Shown piece by piece: positions 6,899 to 23,892 of a stretch of DNA of 27,089 nt. Source of the stretch: a virus; IMG/VR virus record IMGVR_UViG_3300042866_001815, positions 1 to 27,089 of that record. One strand, written 5' to 3'. The translations under genes were made by a program, and so were the position numbers. How positions within the stretch are numbered: position 1 is the stretch's first letter; each line of letters starts with the position of its first letter. Below the pieces are notes generated by a model. That model was not told the DNA's origin. It did not search any database and was given only the letters and a program-made list of their open reading frames with translations.

Positions 6899-7098
6899 TC
6901 GATTAGTCCTTTCGATTGCAGGATGTGCTTTACCCATTCGTGGAATTCCTTTTGCTTTTCTGGGGTCTGCTCGTCTCGCTCGTCCCACAGAAAATCCAGG
7001 ATGTGCTCGCCGGTGTCGGCGTTGGTGACGATAACCTTGGTGATGTGGTCGTCATCGGTTTTGACGGTCTGCATGTGGACCGGTGTAATGTCGCTCAT
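6895..7098 (-). CDS. Hypothetical protein, 67 residues
   Basis: A small acidic protein (begins MSDITPVHMQTVKTDDDHIT) with a strand-rich N-terminus and an amphipathic C-terminal helix (EKQKEFHEWVKHILQSKG). The ATG overlaps the sigma-factor stop (ATGA) and AGAGGAAA lies upstream, so it is translationally coupled to the sigma factor. Whether it acts on that protein, for example as an anti-sigma, is untested. Confidence 0.78.
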   Translation of the reverse strand: MSDITPVHMQTVKTDDDHITKVIVTNADTGEHILDFLWDERDEQTPEKQKEFHEWVKHILQSKGLIE

Positions 7099-7676
7099 TC
7101 TTCGATTTCCTCTCGTGGCCGTCCTTGGCCCTGGTTTGCGTCGATCGACATGGGCTCCAGGCTGTCGATCGACATTAGTTCCTCGATCCTGCTCTCATGC
7201 AGTTTCAGTGCATCGGCAAGCTCGTGGTGGGTTGGTTTACGTTTCAATTCTTGAGTCAGGCGCCGCTCGGTGTAGCGCAGATTGCGGATCTGCTCTGCCA
7301 CGTTCACGGGGATGCGAATCATGCTCCATTCGTTGTCCAGGGACCGGCGGATGCCGCGTTGAATGAATCCCTTGGCATACGTGGAGAACCGCGCACCATT
7401 CTTCGGTGTCCATCGGCGTGCGGCCTTCAGTAGCTCCGCGTTGCCGATACCGATTAGGTCGTCAAAGGGTATGCGACTGGCAGCATATTGCGGGCTCGAC
7501 TTGATCACATAAACGACGAAGCGCATATTGTGAGTGACGAGTCTTTCCAATGCTGCCGCGTCGCCGGCACGTATCATGCCCGACAAGGCTTCCTCTTCCG
7601 CATGCGAAAGTGTTTGGAACTTGTGCAGGCGTCGAAGGTAATTGGTCAGTGACGAACTATCGTTTTGAGTCGGCAT
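7095..7676 (-). CDS. Phage sigma-70-like factor lacking region 4
   Basis: A 193-residue sigma factor. Residues 10-60 match regions 1.2 and 2.1 (LTNYLRRLHKFQTLS, NMRFVVYVIK). FDDLIGIGNAELLKAARRW (71-89) is region 2.2, the core-RNA-polymerase-binding helix. ARFSTYAKGFIQRGIRRSL (95-113) covers 2.3-2.4, which melts and reads the -10 element. IRIPVNVAEQI (120-130) is region 3.0 and ELKRKPTHHELADALKL (143-159) region 3.1. The protein then ends in an acidic tail with no region 4 helix-turn-helix, so it should not read a -35 hexamer unless a partner supplies that contact. It probably redirects host RNA polymerase to phage promoters. The start has a GGGGT ribosome-binding site and overlaps the preceding membrane peptide gene by 20 bases. 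Confidence 0.85.
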   Translation of the reverse strand: MPTQNDSSSLTNYLRRLHKFQTLSHAEEEALSGMIRAGDAAALERLVTHNMRFVVYVIKSSPQYAASRIPFDDLIGIGNAELLKAARRWTPKNGARFSTYAKGFIQRGIRRSLDNEWSMIRIPVNVAEQIRNLRYTERRLTQELKRKPTHHELADALKLHESRIEELMSIDSLEPMSIDANQGQGRPREEIEE

Positions 7677-9656: not shown

Positions 9657-9685
9657 GTACTACACTGGTTTTTCATGGGTACTTC
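9657..9685 (-). promoter_or_regulatory. Dispersed 29-bp element, copy 1 (divergent)
   Basis: On the minus strand it begins GAAGTACCCATGAAAAACC and ends in GTAGTAC; it differs from the consensus at two positions (C-to-T in the CACG part and C-to-G in TCTAG). It lies 27 bases upstream of the 9231-9629 start and 37 bases after the preceding stop, in a 93-base gap containing nothing else. Confidence 0.6.
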
Positions 9686-11429: not shown

Positions 11430-11458
11430 ATACTAGACTGGTTTTTCGTGGGTACTTC
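11430..11458 (-). promoter_or_regulatory. Dispersed 29-bp element, copy 2
   Basis: Nearly identical to the consensus, with the CTAGTAC end changed to CTAGTAT. The TGA stop of the upstream gene (11459-11457) lies within its start. It precedes the SH3-like gene. Confidence 0.7.
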
Positions 11459-12061: not shown

Positions 12062-12460
12062 CTACTCCGGTTGTGTTGTGGTACTAGACTGGTTTTTCGT
12101 GGGTACTTCGTCCACCCACACGTCAATGCGCCACTCTTCCACCCAGGGGATATAGTCCCAGTCGGCCATGGCCTGGGGGCTCTCTGCCCAGTTGATGCCA
12201 CAGCAGATTTCAAGCCGGTGGGCGCCCAACATGCGCGCGTCTTCGATCGCGGACCGTAGCTGCTTCATGGTGCCATTCCAAGGGTGGGATTCGGCCTCGC
12301 CGGCCATGACGTTGCCCTTGTCGTCGAATGCGTAGAAATACCGGCCGCGCGATGCGAACACGCCACCGAATCCCATTTCGCGTTTGGCGCGAATCAAGGC
12401 CTTCTGGTGTTCTTCCGAGCACGCGTGTTGTAGGGATTTCAGATTGTGAAATTTGTTCAT
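12062..12460 (-). CDS. Hypothetical protein with element-encoded C-terminus
   Basis: The start is set at ATG 12460-12458 with GGAGG 7 nt upstream; a TTG two codons earlier is less likely. The 132-residue product is helical at first (FHNLKSLQHACSEEHQKAL) and then strand-rich with RLEICCGINWAES. Its final 15 or so residues (EVPTKNQSSTTTQPE) are encoded by dispersed element copy 3 and its flank, so this tail is probably a by-product of the element rather than part of the original fold. Function unknown. Confidence 0.78.
   Translation of the reverse strand: MNKFHNLKSLQHACSEEHQKALIRAKREMGFGGVFASRGRYFYAFDDKGNVMAGEAESHPWNGTMKQLRSAIEDARMLGAHRLEICCGINWAESPQAMADWDYIPWVEEWRIDVWVDEVPTKNQSSTTTQPE
12081..12109 (-). 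promoter_or_regulatory. Dispersed 29-bp element, copy 3 (inside a coding frame)
   Basis: Consensus sequence apart from its first base, followed on the minus strand by CACAACACAACCGGAG and the ATG of 11675-12058. Unlike the other copies it lies inside the 3' end of the 12062-12460 gene, which reads through it. Confidence 0.7.
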
Positions 12461-12898: not shown

Positions 12899-12927
12899 AT
12901 ACTAGACTGGTTTTTCGTGGGTACTTC
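12899..12927 (-). promoter_or_regulatory. Dispersed 29-bp element, copy 4
   Basis: Consensus with the CTAGTAT ending. The TGA stop of the upstream membrane peptide gene is built into its first bases. It precedes the 12655-12876 gene by 22 bases. Confidence 0.7.
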
Positions 12928-13874: not shown

Positions 13875-13898
13875 GTACTGGTTTTTCGTGGGTGCTTC
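13875..13898 (-). promoter_or_regulatory. Dispersed element, copy 5 (5-bp deletion)
   Basis: A shortened copy: five bases of the ACTAG part are missing and GTACCC is changed to GCACCC. The stop codon of 13897-14271 is embedded in it. It precedes the 13257-13850 start by 24 bases. Confidence 0.6.
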
Positions 13899-14316: not shown

Positions 14317-14345
14317 GTACTAGACTGGTTTTTCGTGGGTACTTT
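14317..14345 (-). promoter_or_regulatory. Dispersed 29-bp element, copy 6
   Basis: Consensus except for its first base. The TAA stop of 14344-14544 overlaps its start. It is separated from the 13897-14271 start by the pentanucleotide repeat. Confidence 0.7.
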
Positions 14346-14569: not shown

Positions 14570-14598
14570 GTACTAGACTGGTTTTTCGTGGGTACTTC
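14570..14598 (-). promoter_or_regulatory. Dispersed 29-bp element, copy 7
   Basis: Exact consensus, 25 bases upstream of the 14344-14544 ATG. Its upstream end merges with the right arm of the 14595-14628 hairpin (minus-strand sense). Confidence 0.7.
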
Positions 14599-14633: not shown

Positions 14634-15380
14634 TTATGCAGCCTGGAGGATCGGGATGATGCGTGGGGTGTCAACCACGAAACCGGTTGTATCCTTCTTG
14701 GCAGGACCCTTGGCATACAGGGCAACCACCACACCCTGGGGCTCTAGGTGGCGCACGTCGGAATCATCACCACCAATGCACTCCATACCCTGGAATGTGG
14801 CAGGGATGGAATCCTTGGTGCGGAAAACGACAGCAATACGCATGCCATTGGCACGTGCTTGCTGCGCATACTTGTCGAATGTCGCAACACCGGACCAGGA
14901 AAACGTCAGGTCATAATTCGCAGGAATATCCTTGCGATTTGACAGCTTGGTGTAATCGTAGAATTGCACGTCAGGGAAGCACTCGAAAATGGTGCGGCCG
15001 TCGGCCATGCGCACAGATTCCCACCGAATATCGGACGTGCCATTGAGACGCACCAGGGGTGTGAGACCCTTGCGTGCAGCCTTACGCACCAGGGATTCAA
15101 TGTCACGCACCAATTGCTGCATGAACCATTCGCGGTCCGTGAAGAACAGCACCGTGCGATTCATGCGCGCGGTCTGGACCGACGACATGGCACCACGGCC
15201 GGCTGTGAACAAGCACGGTGCTTCGCAGCCTGCCAGTTTTGCCATGGGACAGACCTGGAAACCCGATTGGGCAGCCGGCGCCATGTACAGGATACCGGTC
15301 AGGAAACCCAGGGTCTGACCTTTCACGGTCTTGGCATTGGTGTCGATAGACAGCAGGGTGTTGGGACGATAGGTTTGCAT
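14634..15380 (-). CDS. GP88-family phage protein with cysteine cluster
   Basis: A 248-residue protein resembling the phage gene product 88 family. Near the N-terminus Cys44, Cys52 and Cys56 (VCPMAKLAGCEAPC) form a tight cluster followed by AGRGAMSSVQTARMNRT. Then come segments LVRLNGTSDIRWE, VQFYDYTK and LTFSWSG at spacing that suggests a TIM-barrel-like alternation of strands and helices. A three-cysteine cluster plus such a barrel recalls radical-SAM-type enzymes, but the Cys spacing is not the canonical CxxxCxxC. The family is widespread in phages and its function is not known to me. It is the first gene left of the non-coding region, preceded by dispersed element copy 8. Confidence 0.8.
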   Translation of the reverse strand: MQTYRPNTLLSIDTNAKTVKGQTLGFLTGILYMAPAAQSGFQVCPMAKLAGCEAPCLFTAGRGAMSSVQTARMNRTVLFFTDREWFMQQLVRDIESLVRKAARKGLTPLVRLNGTSDIRWESVRMADGRTIFECFPDVQFYDYTKLSNRKDIPANYDLTFSWSGVATFDKYAQQARANGMRIAVVFRTKDSIPATFQGMECIGGDDSDVRHLEPQGVVVALYAKGPAKKDTTGFVVDTPRIIPILQAA

Positions 15381-15405: not shown

Positions 15406-15434
15406 GTACTAGACTGGTTTTTCGTGGGTAGTTC
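15406..15434 (-). promoter_or_regulatory. Dispersed 29-bp element, copy 8
   Basis: Consensus except GTACCC changed to CTACCC. It is the outermost copy, 25 bases upstream of the GP88-like start and next to the non-coding region, so it heads the whole leftward array. Confidence 0.68.
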
Positions 15435-16409: not shown

Positions 16410-17357
16410 ATGAGTTGGATAATGGCAATAACGGCAGATACGCCGGTCCCTACCCCGGATTCATGGGTACTGGCGCGAGACCTACGTAAGGGGGATATTG
16501 TTTTCGATAACCTGGGCGCGCCCATGGTGATTGAGGCGACGCAGGAGTACACGCCGGATGTTTGCTACCGGGTGGGGTTTAGGGACGGCACGACATTCAA
16601 GGGCGACGGTAAGGCGAGTCTAGGACTGGCGACGAGAAAGTACCGGATCAAGCAATGCGAATACCGCGCGCGGCCCATCAAACCGTACCGCAAGCGTTTC
16701 CGGATGCAGTTGGCTACCTTGACCCTGGCCGAACTGGCGGAGCGGCCTCTGAAGGACAAGAACGGCCGCCTGGAGTATGCGGTGCCCATGGCCGCACCCC
16801 AGTACCCATGGCGCGATCTGCCGGTGCCTCCGTACGTGTTTGGGGTGTGGTGGGGCTCCAAGGCCAAGGCAAGGATTCCGAAAGGCACCAAGGACGTACA
16901 GAACATCCGGGCGAAGTTCCGGCAGTATGGCTATGAGGTGGTGGAGAGCCGGAAACATTTTGAAATTCGACCGTCGATACCGCACGCGTTCCTGTTTGCC
17001 GGCGCCGACATTCCGAATTCCCTGCCGTTTGCGTACTGCCAGTCGTCGATTGAGCAACGGCAGCAGCTTCTGGAGGGGTTTATCGACGCTCAGGCAACAA
17101 ACCAGAACGTCGATCGCAAGCAACTGTCGTTCCACACCCCGAATTGGTACAACGCACGACGGTTCCAGGCCCTGGTGGAGTCACTTGGCTACCGAACTAG
17201 CCTCAATCAAGCTGCAAAGTACGAGGTAAATTTTAGAATTCGCTCACAACAGCACCATCTGTTGTGTCAGATTGAGAAAATACCGCCAGAATTGTGCGTG
17301 TTTGTACAAACACCGCGTCGAATGATGGTCGGAGAAGGTTTTATACCGGTATGTTGA
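16410..17357 (+). CDS. Stand-alone intein-derived Hint protein with degenerate LAGLIDADG domain
   Basis: A 315-residue protein that reads like a whole intein without exteins. Residues 6-19, AITADTPVPTPDSW, match the start of Ala1-type inteins, followed by LRKGDIVF and CYRVGFRDGTTF. The block B His is absent (GDGKASLGL at 65-73). PYVFGVWWGSK (141-151) and LLEGFIDAQA (220-229) sit where the two LAGLIDADG helices should be, but both catalytic acidic positions are replaced (GDG to GSK, DxDG to DAQA). The end, MMVGEGFIPVC, resembles an intein C-terminus but lacks the terminal His-Asn. It is therefore probably inactive for splicing and cutting and kept for another role. A second ATG at 16422 would start the protein directly before the intein's first residue. 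Neither start has a good ribosome-binding site. The end overlaps terL by 7 bases. Confidence 0.8.
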   Translation: MSWIMAITADTPVPTPDSWVLARDLRKGDIVFDNLGAPMVIEATQEYTPDVCYRVGFRDGTTFKGDGKASLGLATRKYRIKQCEYRARPIKPYRKRFRMQLATLTLAELAERPLKDKNGRLEYAVPMAAPQYPWRDLPVPPYVFGVWWGSKAKARIPKGTKDVQNIRAKFRQYGYEVVESRKHFEIRPSIPHAFLFAGADIPNSLPFAYCQSSIEQRQQLLEGFIDAQATNQNVDRKQLSFHTPNWYNARRFQALVESLGYRTSLNQAAKYEVNFRIRSQQHHLLCQIEKIPPELCVFVQTPRRMMVGEGFIPVC

Positions 17358-18787
17358 ACAAGACCCAAGAGAAAATCCTGTCGGATTTTGCAAAAAGTCA
17401 CAAACACTGGCCCAAACCGGAGCTAGAGGCCGCACTTTGGCAAGTCCGGTGGGAATTGAGTGCCCTGCCGCACCAAAAAGAGCCCGAGGATGGGGAATAC
17501 GACACGTTTCTCATGCTTGCAGGCCGCGGATCCGGCAAAACCCACACGGCGAGCCACTGGATCGGCATTCGGGCGTGGAAATACCCCAATACGCGGTGGC
17601 TTGTCACGGCCCCGACGTACAACGACATTCGCTCGACCTGTTTTGAGGGTGATTCCGGGCTGTTGAACATCATTCCGCGATCGATTATTGCGGACTACAA
17701 CAAGTCCCTGTTCGAGATCACGCTGATCAACGGGTCCATCATCCAGGGCATACCGGGCTCTGAGCCAGAACGGTACCGCGGTAAGCAGTATCATGGCGGA
17801 TGGTTCGACGAGTTGTGCGCGTTCGAGTATATCGATGACGCGTACGATCAGGTGCAGTTCACGATGCGTCTGCGCGACCCGAATATCAAACGGGTGCAGC
17901 AGATCATCACGACAACCCCCAAACCGCGGGAGTTGATCGTGGACCTGAACGAGGGCAAGGTTGGTGGCGACGTGTATGTGGTTAACGCGTCGTCCTACGA
18001 CAACAAACAAAACCTCTCGTCCACCTTCTTCAAGCAGCTTGAAACGTACGAAGGCACCGACCTTGGTAAGCAGGAGATTTACGGGGAGATTCTGAACCCG
18101 GAAGATTCCGGCGTTATCAAGCGCAAGTGGTTCCGCATGTGGCCGGCCAAACGCGAGACCCCGACCCTGGAGTATGTGATCGCGTCGTACGATCCGGCCA
18201 CGTCGGAGAAGACCTACAACGACCCAACCGCGTGCGAGGTCTGGGGTGTGTTTGAGCAACCCGACCAGGGCACGAGCGTGATCCTCCTGGACGCGTGGGA
18301 TGCCCATCTGGCCTATCCGGAGTTGCGCAAGAAGGTGATCGCGGACTTCAAGGAGGTTGTGTACGGTGCGGACAATACGTTTGCAAAGGGCCGGAAGTCG
18401 GACCTGATCCTGATGGAGGATAAGTCGGCAGGCATCTCGCTGATCCAGGAGTTGCAAGGTGCGGGTGTGCCGGTGCGGGGGTATAACCCTGGCAAGGCCG
18501 ACAAATTGCAGCGTGTGAACATCATCGCCCCACTAATCGCTAAGGGCAAGGTCTACATTCCGGAGGATCCCAAGAAACCTGGGGAGTTTGCGGAGTGGTC
18601 GAAGAAATTCCTGCGTCAGGTGTGCTCGTTCCCAGAATCTGGTGGGCATGACGACTATGTGGATTCGCTTTCCCAGGCCCTTCGGGTATTGCGGGATTCG
18701 GGGTGGATTCAGCTTGATCCTCTGCCGGCCCGGGACTATTCGTACGCCGACGATAAGAAGCAACGTGTTAATCCGTACGCACAATAA
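17351..18787 (+). CDS. terL: Terminase large subunit (ATPase/nuclease)
   Basis: The 478-residue DNA-packaging motor. Walker A AGRGSGKT at 57-64, Walker B GGWFDEL at 149-155 (Asp153, Glu154), coupling motif TTTP at 187-190. The RNase H-like nuclease domain has Asp281 in ASYDPA, Asp357 in MEDKSAG and Asp434/Asp435 in GGHDDY. The start is set at ATG 17351 with GGAGAAGG 12 nt upstream, inside the end of the Hint gene; a longer frame from 17294 lacks a ribosome-binding site. The protein is continuous and carries no intein. Length and N-terminus are normal for the family. The gene overlaps the preceding stop (GTATGTTGA), suggesting coupled translation. Confidence 0.95.
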   Translation: MLNKTQEKILSDFAKSHKHWPKPELEAALWQVRWELSALPHQKEPEDGEYDTFLMLAGRGSGKTHTASHWIGIRAWKYPNTRWLVTAPTYNDIRSTCFEGDSGLLNIIPRSIIADYNKSLFEITLINGSIIQGIPGSEPERYRGKQYHGGWFDELCAFEYIDDAYDQVQFTMRLRDPNIKRVQQIITTTPKPRELIVDLNEGKVGGDVYVVNASSYDNKQNLSSTFFKQLETYEGTDLGKQEIYGEILNPEDSGVIKRKWFRMWPAKRETPTLEYVIASYDPATSEKTYNDPTACEVWGVFEQPDQGTSVILLDAWDAHLAYPELRKKVIADFKEVVYGADNTFAKGRKSDLILMEDKSAGISLIQELQGAGVPVRGYNPGKADKLQRVNIIAPLIAKGKVYIPEDPKKPGEFAEWSKKFLRQVCSFPESGGHDDYVDSLSQALRVLRDSGWIQLDPLPARDYSYADDKKQRVNPYAQ

Positions 18788-23451: not shown

Positions 23452-23892
23452 ATGGCATATGACTTGTCCAAGAAGGAAGAACCGGATCTGCGATCGGAAG
23501 CGGAATGCTTCCCTGAAGTTGACCCGGGCATTGATGTAGCAGGCGATCGAGTACTGGTGCAACTGCGCCGGGAAAAGGTTGCAAGCAAAGGCGGAATTAT
23601 CCTGGTGCAAGAAACCAGGGAAACCCTGCGGTTTAACGAGACTGTAGCCAAGGTGGTCCAGATCGGTCCCCTGGCGTACAAGAGTCCCGACACTATGGAG
23701 CCGTGGCCCGAGGGCCCCTGGTGCAATGTCGGTGATCTGGTCCGAACCATCAAGTATGGCGGCGATCGTTTCGTGGTAAACCCTGAAGATGGTGGCGCAC
23801 CGGTGGTGTTCATCACGATCCAGGCCAGGGAAGTCATCTCGCGCATTCGTAATTTCGAGTATGCGCAGCGGATGAAAGCCTTTGTAGATTAA
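23452..23892 (+). CDS. GroES-like co-chaperonin
   Basis: A 146-residue Cpn10-family protein. GDRVLVQLRREKVASKGGIIL (31-51) matches GroES strand 1 plus mobile loop; GIIL (48-51) corresponds to the hydrophobic tripeptide that docks on GroEL. ETVAKVVQIGPLAYKSP (63-79) and VGDLVRTIKYGG (93-104) match the later strands. GroES itself is about 97 residues; this one has an N-terminal extension of about 30 and a C-terminal helix. Like T4 gp31 it probably caps host GroEL to fold capsid protein, inferred from its place just upstream of scaffold and capsid. GGAGG lies 9 nt before the ATG. Confidence 0.88.
   Translation: MAYDLSKKEEPDLRSEAECFPEVDPGIDVAGDRVLVQLRREKVASKGGIILVQETRETLRFNETVAKVVQIGPLAYKSPDTMEPWPEGPWCNVGDLVRTIKYGGDRFVVNPEDGGAPVVFITIQAREVISRIRNFEYAQRMKAFVD

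Follow-up and report, generated by a model that had tools for sequence, protein, structure and literature searches.

Why would a virus keep an intein-like protein that has no exteins to join and no longer possesses the residues with which inteins splice and cut, and why directly in front of a terminase gene? This question is raised by a gene, here called hint, which encodes a free-standing Hint-LAGLIDADG protein immediately upstream of terL in the IMG/VR virus record IMGVR_UViG_3300042866_001815; the whole 27,089-base record is referred to as the window. We consider it fairly probable that hint arose by domestication of a class 3 intein and that its protein now binds DNA without cutting it and takes the part of the small terminase (TerS). 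The homology, residue losses, purifying selection, coupling to terL, mutual exclusion with TerS and basic charge on which this reading is based were observed, the fold was predicted, and from them we infer the TerS role.

The hint gene and its intein homology

On the + strand, the reading frame from 16410 to 17357 is uninterrupted. A first-pass annotation, made from the letters of the window alone, had assigned this whole open reading frame (ORF) to the gene; the intact frame stands, and the start is better placed at 16422. In relatives, an ATG, GTG or TTG directly precedes intein residue Ala1, mostly within (M/V)A(I/V/L), and therefore ATG 16422 is most likely the true start, which gives a gene at 16422..17357 (+) of 311 aa plus stop. 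Ala at intein position 1 (16425..16427, +) was placed by alignment and is found in 55 of 59 hint versions (each <95% identity; all residue counts refer to this set). It would be the N-terminal residue expected once Met is removed.

The window protein resembles phage DnaB and TerL inteins (best tblastn E=2e-25, 30% over 287 residues), PHROG terL profiles that include an intein match it (4e-12), and the profile of the hint family matches the solved class 3 DnaB inteins 6bs8 and 6rix (E=3e-9). Pfam alone gave a sub-threshold homing-endonuclease match and missed the Hint domain. When aligned with ten phage inteins trimmed to their splice junctions, the window protein runs from Ala1 through block G, and the first-pass description of a full Ala1-type intein span without exteins is borne out. 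In all ten comparison inteins, block B has the Trp and block F the Cys that mark class 3, the latter being the nucleophile in the class 3 mechanism (PMC5050341), and this Cys is kept in hint (17295..17297, +; 58/59 copies). Judged by these alignments, the ancestor of hint is a class 3 (Trp-Cys-Thr) intein. On a tree with the ten inteins, the free-standing family is monophyletic (support 100/100), a result to be read with caution given the long branches between the two groups.

An AlphaFold2 model of the window protein, built with 34 window-clade sequences as input, has a mean pLDDT of 88.8 and a pTM of 0.84. Its best Foldseek matches in the PDB are full-length inteins with LAGLIDADG domains (TliVMA 7qsu, E=6e-11), and PI-SceI structures, including the DNA-bound 1lws and 1lwt, reach a TM of ~0.7 on the query. 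The model confirms a predicted Hint beta fold split by a LAGLIDADG insertion. The first-pass annotation would have abandoned its reading had no Hint fold been predicted; the fold was predicted with confidence.

Loss of splicing and cleavage residues

Within this conserved frame, the residues on which intein chemistry depends are replaced, as had been claimed for the block B His, the C-terminal His-Asn and both LAGLIDADG Asp residues. In the window protein, block B (16614..16622, +) has Ala for the intein His and Leu for the class 3 Trp. LAGLIDADG helix 1 (16830..16862, +) has Ser for the catalytic Asp at 16857-16859, and helix 2 (17058..17096, +) has Gln at 17091-17093. At the C-terminus, the inteins read PTHN followed by T, whereas the window protein ends in FIPVC-stop. 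The same holds across the family: the block B His and the class 3 Trp are each present in 10/10 inteins and in 0/59 free-standing copies, the first LAGLIDADG Asp (10/10 inteins) is mostly Asn, Thr or Ser, and the second is found in no copy, its place being taken by Lys in 36 and Arg in 11 (47/59). None of the free-standing copies has the terminal His-Asn, the ORF halting before the Asn and the +1 Ser/Thr/Cys. Nor does hint lie in frame between exteins; its start and stop codons lie at the edges of the intein, and it forms an ORF separate from terL.

With exteins, the block B His and Trp and the C-terminal Asn all lacking, hint should not be a splicing-competent class 3 intein, and its substitutions likewise argue that it is not an active LAGLIDADG homing endonuclease. 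The catalytic set is intact in 0/59 homologues, which supports the proposed loss of the residues for both functions and disposes of the possibility, raised in the first-pass annotation, that relatives with intact residues would expose the window copy as a recent random wreck.

Coupling to terL

Four near-identical contigs encode the hint gene. Its stop overlaps the terL start by 7 nt (ATGTTGA, 17351..17357, +), as originally described, and terL itself (17351..18787, +; PF03237 E=1e-17, PF17289 E=5e-8, PHROG terL) is intact and without an intein. We fetched TerL relatives at 75-100% identity (60 loci), and a free-standing Hint ORF precedes terL in every one with enough upstream DNA. Scanning IMG/VR with the hint alignment yielded 374 relatives, most of them fragments, and the same arrangement was seen in 80/80 of the best matches, which were the ones examined. 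Related phages thus keep hint directly before terL, and 101 of 103 copies are full length. The phages with hint are an environmental group, probably from freshwater, and one relative falls in a beta-proteobacterial metagenome bin. At locus L035 (1583-2392), the Hint copy is shorter than the related L034 copy by 54 residues, in frame, and may be a natural variant or an assembly artefact.

The overlap is 4, 7 or 10 nt at 67/70 distinct junctions; two others have a 3-nt gap and one a 647-nt insertion. Purine-rich GEG codons occur at nearly all distinct junctions, and their Glu and Gly are invariant across the family. In the window, these codons contain GGAGAAGG (17331..17338, +), a possible terL ribosome-binding site; the proposed site is indeed there, yet it ends 12 nt before the terL ATG, a longish spacing. 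A frameshift fusion of hint and TerL was also considered; by eye no canonical slippery site was found, and the three junctions with a gap (3 nt in two, 647 nt in one) show that such a fusion cannot be general.

Selection and co-inheritance

In close pairs, dN/dS is 0.01-0.11 for hint and 0.015-0.06 for terL in the same pairs, in line with the suggestion that the gene is retained under selection. Over longer distances the two proteins differ, with a median identity of 37% for Hint and 82% for TerL, and within pairs of differing hint types the nucleotide identity rises from ~55% to ~85% at the terL start. Hint and TerL distances nevertheless correlate (Spearman 0.64; 0/2000 permutations as high), and the two trees have many subclades in common; hint and TerL are co-inherited and not simply swapped as alleles. 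Since pairs with like TerL divergence can show very unlike hint divergence (L021-L041 versus L019-L031), some replacement is likely.

That hint is a decaying parasite on its way out, as the missing catalytic residues might suggest, is scarcely credible; it is refuted by the full-length copies, the monophyly of the family, the dN/dS values and the co-inheritance with terL. A recent wreck is likewise ruled out by purifying selection, wide distribution, full-length copies and monophyly. Sequence comparison rather makes it well supported that hint is a conserved stand-alone intein derivative under selection, that is, a domesticated one.

The pattern of change bears on what the protein may do. All 59 hint proteins are basic, with a pI of 9.1-10.0, whereas the mean for the ten inteins is 7.7. 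Variation is greatest in the saddle strands (entropy 2.45, against 1.37 for the LAGLIDADG helices) and smallest in the Hint strands and the helices of the LAGLIDADG interface. A basic charge with a variable saddle is what would be expected of a DNA-reading protein with shifting specificity. The first-pass annotation had proposed a new job in packaging, DNA recognition or control of terL translation, and a new job, probably one of the first two, is supported. We regard it as very unlikely that hint matters solely as a leader ORF controlling terL translation. The 67/70 overlapping junctions and the possible ribosome-binding site in the GEG codons, with their invariant E and G, would fit such a leader, but its amino acids are under purifying selection, the full fold is kept, the basic charge is uniform, and 311 structured residues are more than a leader needs; translation control by itself would leave a folded, basic protein of this size unexplained.

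Exchange with the small terminase

The nearest TerL outside the hint group in the phage collection is that of MW202545 (51%). In this phage, a TerS gene (PF20901, E=3e-40) precedes terL, and the synteny is similar to that of the window (portal, GroES); the more distant Caulobacter phage GB2A has a PF20901 TerS too. Among 80 fetched relatives of the MW202545 TerL (the sister set), all but three match the MW202545 TerS, two of these three ending at or near a contig edge, and a Hint gene was found in none of the 80. The sister TerS proteins (L150-L229, upstream of terL) are modular, unrelated N-terminal parts being swapped onto one conserved C-terminal tail (consensus VIEHNxNVFGELLKxIKxxRQ), which is presumably the TerL-binding piece. 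A sister-clade contig (L161:774-2716) seems to carry a partial duplication of TerL. In a tree built from TerL with 98 tips, a single change separates the hint (56) from the TerS (38) labels (SH-aLRT 99).

No TerS was matched in 16-18 hint-clade records by PF20901, PF05119 or the sister-clade alignment A3, an absence that rests on profiles for a very divergent protein class. In the controls, A3 matched 7/7 sister records and PF20901 4/10, the other six having other TerS types. A PF03592 match in the relative G005 (E=6e-4) was below the cut-off and within a 610-aa frame, and was not accepted as TerS. The window has no homologue of the sister TerS, no PF20901, PF03592 or PF05119 match, and, from the early region up to terL, no further evident gene on the + strand. 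In short, hint occupies the TerS position of the sister phages, and no TerS was detected in hint phages, a relationship that the first-pass annotation did not mention. Like a TerS gene, hint lies next to terL and replaces TerS in distribution; the helix-turn-helix (HTH), helical oligomerization core and 15-21 kDa size of TerS are missing, the fold being Hint plus LAGLIDADG in 311 aa.

Small genes do stand in front of hint in some relatives. HNH/endonuclease VII-like or N-terminal-only genes lie just upstream in many of them (L125:306-830, L055:3702-4127, L041:3843-4061 and others), none in the window, and a further small gene, also conserved (MNKYVYQIQGALE...RWVLENFYGN), extends over the start of hint at L109:3730-4035 and ~30 other loci. 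Neither the NPxTG..RGD type nor the MNKYVYQIQGALE type was accepted as a universal TerS, because these genes are absent from the window and several relatives. They do lend something to the view that hint is an accessory packaging factor, like the HNH proteins beside terminases, working alongside an unrecognised TerS. We find this unlikely: HNH packaging proteins act as nucleases and hint lacks the nuclease Asp residues, profiles detect no TerS, and the window offers no other evident gene in the interval before terL.

The sister clade also bears on the history of hint. No TerL was seen to carry an intein in either the hint group or the sister group, and the free-standing family forms one clade apart from all ten inteins tested; because of these two results, the donor gene is untraceable, and the proposal that hint moved out of terL found no support. 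It has to be asked too whether a dead homing protein could shield the Walker-A site of terL from intein invasion. Phage inteins are often located in the terL ATPase domain (PMC5050341), and the intein-free TerL proteins of the hint clade would agree with protection, but there is no protection signal because the sister clade, without hint, also shows no TerL inteins. The divergence of the saddle is moreover far above that of its supposed target terL, and we hold such a shield to be highly improbable.

Proposed role of hint

In the role that we favor, the protein has retained its Hint fold and the DNA-binding saddle of the LAGLIDADG domain, but not the splice junction residues, the His and Trp of block B or the endonuclease Asp residues. 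The saddle would bind a specific site in the DNA of the phage itself and leave it uncut, with the catalytic Asp position now filled by an often basic residue, and the protein would present the bound DNA to TerL. Translation of TerL probably overlaps that of hint on a shared transcript, which would set the hint:TerL protein ratio. In this phage lineage, the hint protein would then stand in for TerS. That a dead selfish intein replaced TerS across the lineage, its homing-endonuclease saddle now reading the packaging site, has in our estimation a little better than an even chance. The proposed likeness to TerS is one of function; structurally, the hint protein falls outside the TerS family.

Several points weigh against this role. 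DNA binding, site specificity, TerL contact and packaging start are inferred steps only, and neither the TerS fold nor a ring core or HTH is present in the protein, which also lacks the C-terminal tail of the sister-clade TerS. Given how strongly TerS proteins diverge, one may have gone unrecognised elsewhere, the records may be incomplete, and many relatives, not the window, have another small upstream gene, HNH-like or other.

DNA binding could also serve transcription. As the first gene of the + strand late operon, hint might encode a DNA-binding regulator of that operon, and a homing-endonuclease-related regulator, the LAGLIDADG-derived WhiA, exists (PMC3781837). However, the strict terL overlap and the exchange with TerS suggest a packaging partner instead, and the window phage has its own sigma factor gene, so that a regulatory function appears improbable.

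Other features of the window and its relatives

The intergenic repeat ACTGGTTTTTCGTGGGTACTT occurs in eight copies in the window (9664-9684, 11437-11457, 12088-12108, 12906-12926, 13877-13897, 14324-14344, 14577-14597 and 15413-15433), with up to 60 nt conserved. The copies lie ~20-50 nt upstream of minus-strand ATGs, mostly the starts of small early genes, and probably serve as early promoters or leaders. Relatives seem to have diverged forms of the repeat. The phage-encoded RNA polymerase sigma factor (7095-7676, -; PHROG 351, E=1.8e-27) is a candidate reader of this repeat. A conserved phage protein is encoded at 14634-15380 (-; PHROG 1617, E=4.5e-71), and several relatives encode a similar protein at the same position. 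A GroES-like co-chaperonin gene lies in the capsid gene region (23452-23889, +; PHROG 3188, E=1e-8); MW202545 also has a GroES gene, downstream of the portal region.

Comparison with known systems

Among open-licence papers, mostly seen as titles and abstracts, there was no precedent for free-standing inteins with terminases, inteins with TerS, or exapted homing endonucleases with terminases. TerS proteins (the Sf6 type PF20901 and others) are like hint in being encoded before terL, in diverging fast relative to TerL and in being mutually exclusive with it here; they are 15-21 kDa helical ring formers with an HTH (PMC9611059), whereas the hint protein has a mass of ~35 kDa and a fold unrelated to theirs. 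The HNH proteins encoded beside terminases likewise place a homing-type nuclease fold next to terL, but this is another fold, and the nuclease is kept. WhiA, like hint in our reading, is a LAGLIDADG-derived protein reused for DNA binding; unlike hint, it has an HTH, has no Hint domain and is a cellular regulator.

Yeast HO and WHO are stand-alone, DNA-cutting intein-like proteins without motif G (PMC7282813). They share with hint the intein relationship, the independence from exteins and the lack of motif G, but they are active nucleases with a zinc finger, whereas hint, in which no zinc-finger domain was seen, lacks the nuclease residues and would, at the residue level, not have retained endonuclease activity as HO did. 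Class 3 phage TerL and DnaB inteins (e.g. mycobacteriophage TerL; solved relative, the M. smegmatis DnaB intein 6bs8) have a homologous Hint domain, the Ala-type position 1 and the block F Cys in common with hint, and the phage inteins the LAGLIDADG insertion as well. Hint differs in being a separate gene and in lacking exteins, the His and Trp of block B, the terminal His-Asn and the nuclease Asp. Known domesticated intein derivatives such as HO retain the nuclease; a conserved family without the residues for either activity but still intein-folded would be evidence that a virus can make the DNA-recognition half of an intein a fixed part of itself. If hint acts as TerS, it would represent a non-homologous replacement within the packaging motor and a new, naturally varying recognition module for how terminases choose DNA, for which the two sister lineages, differing in one component, provide a natural test set.
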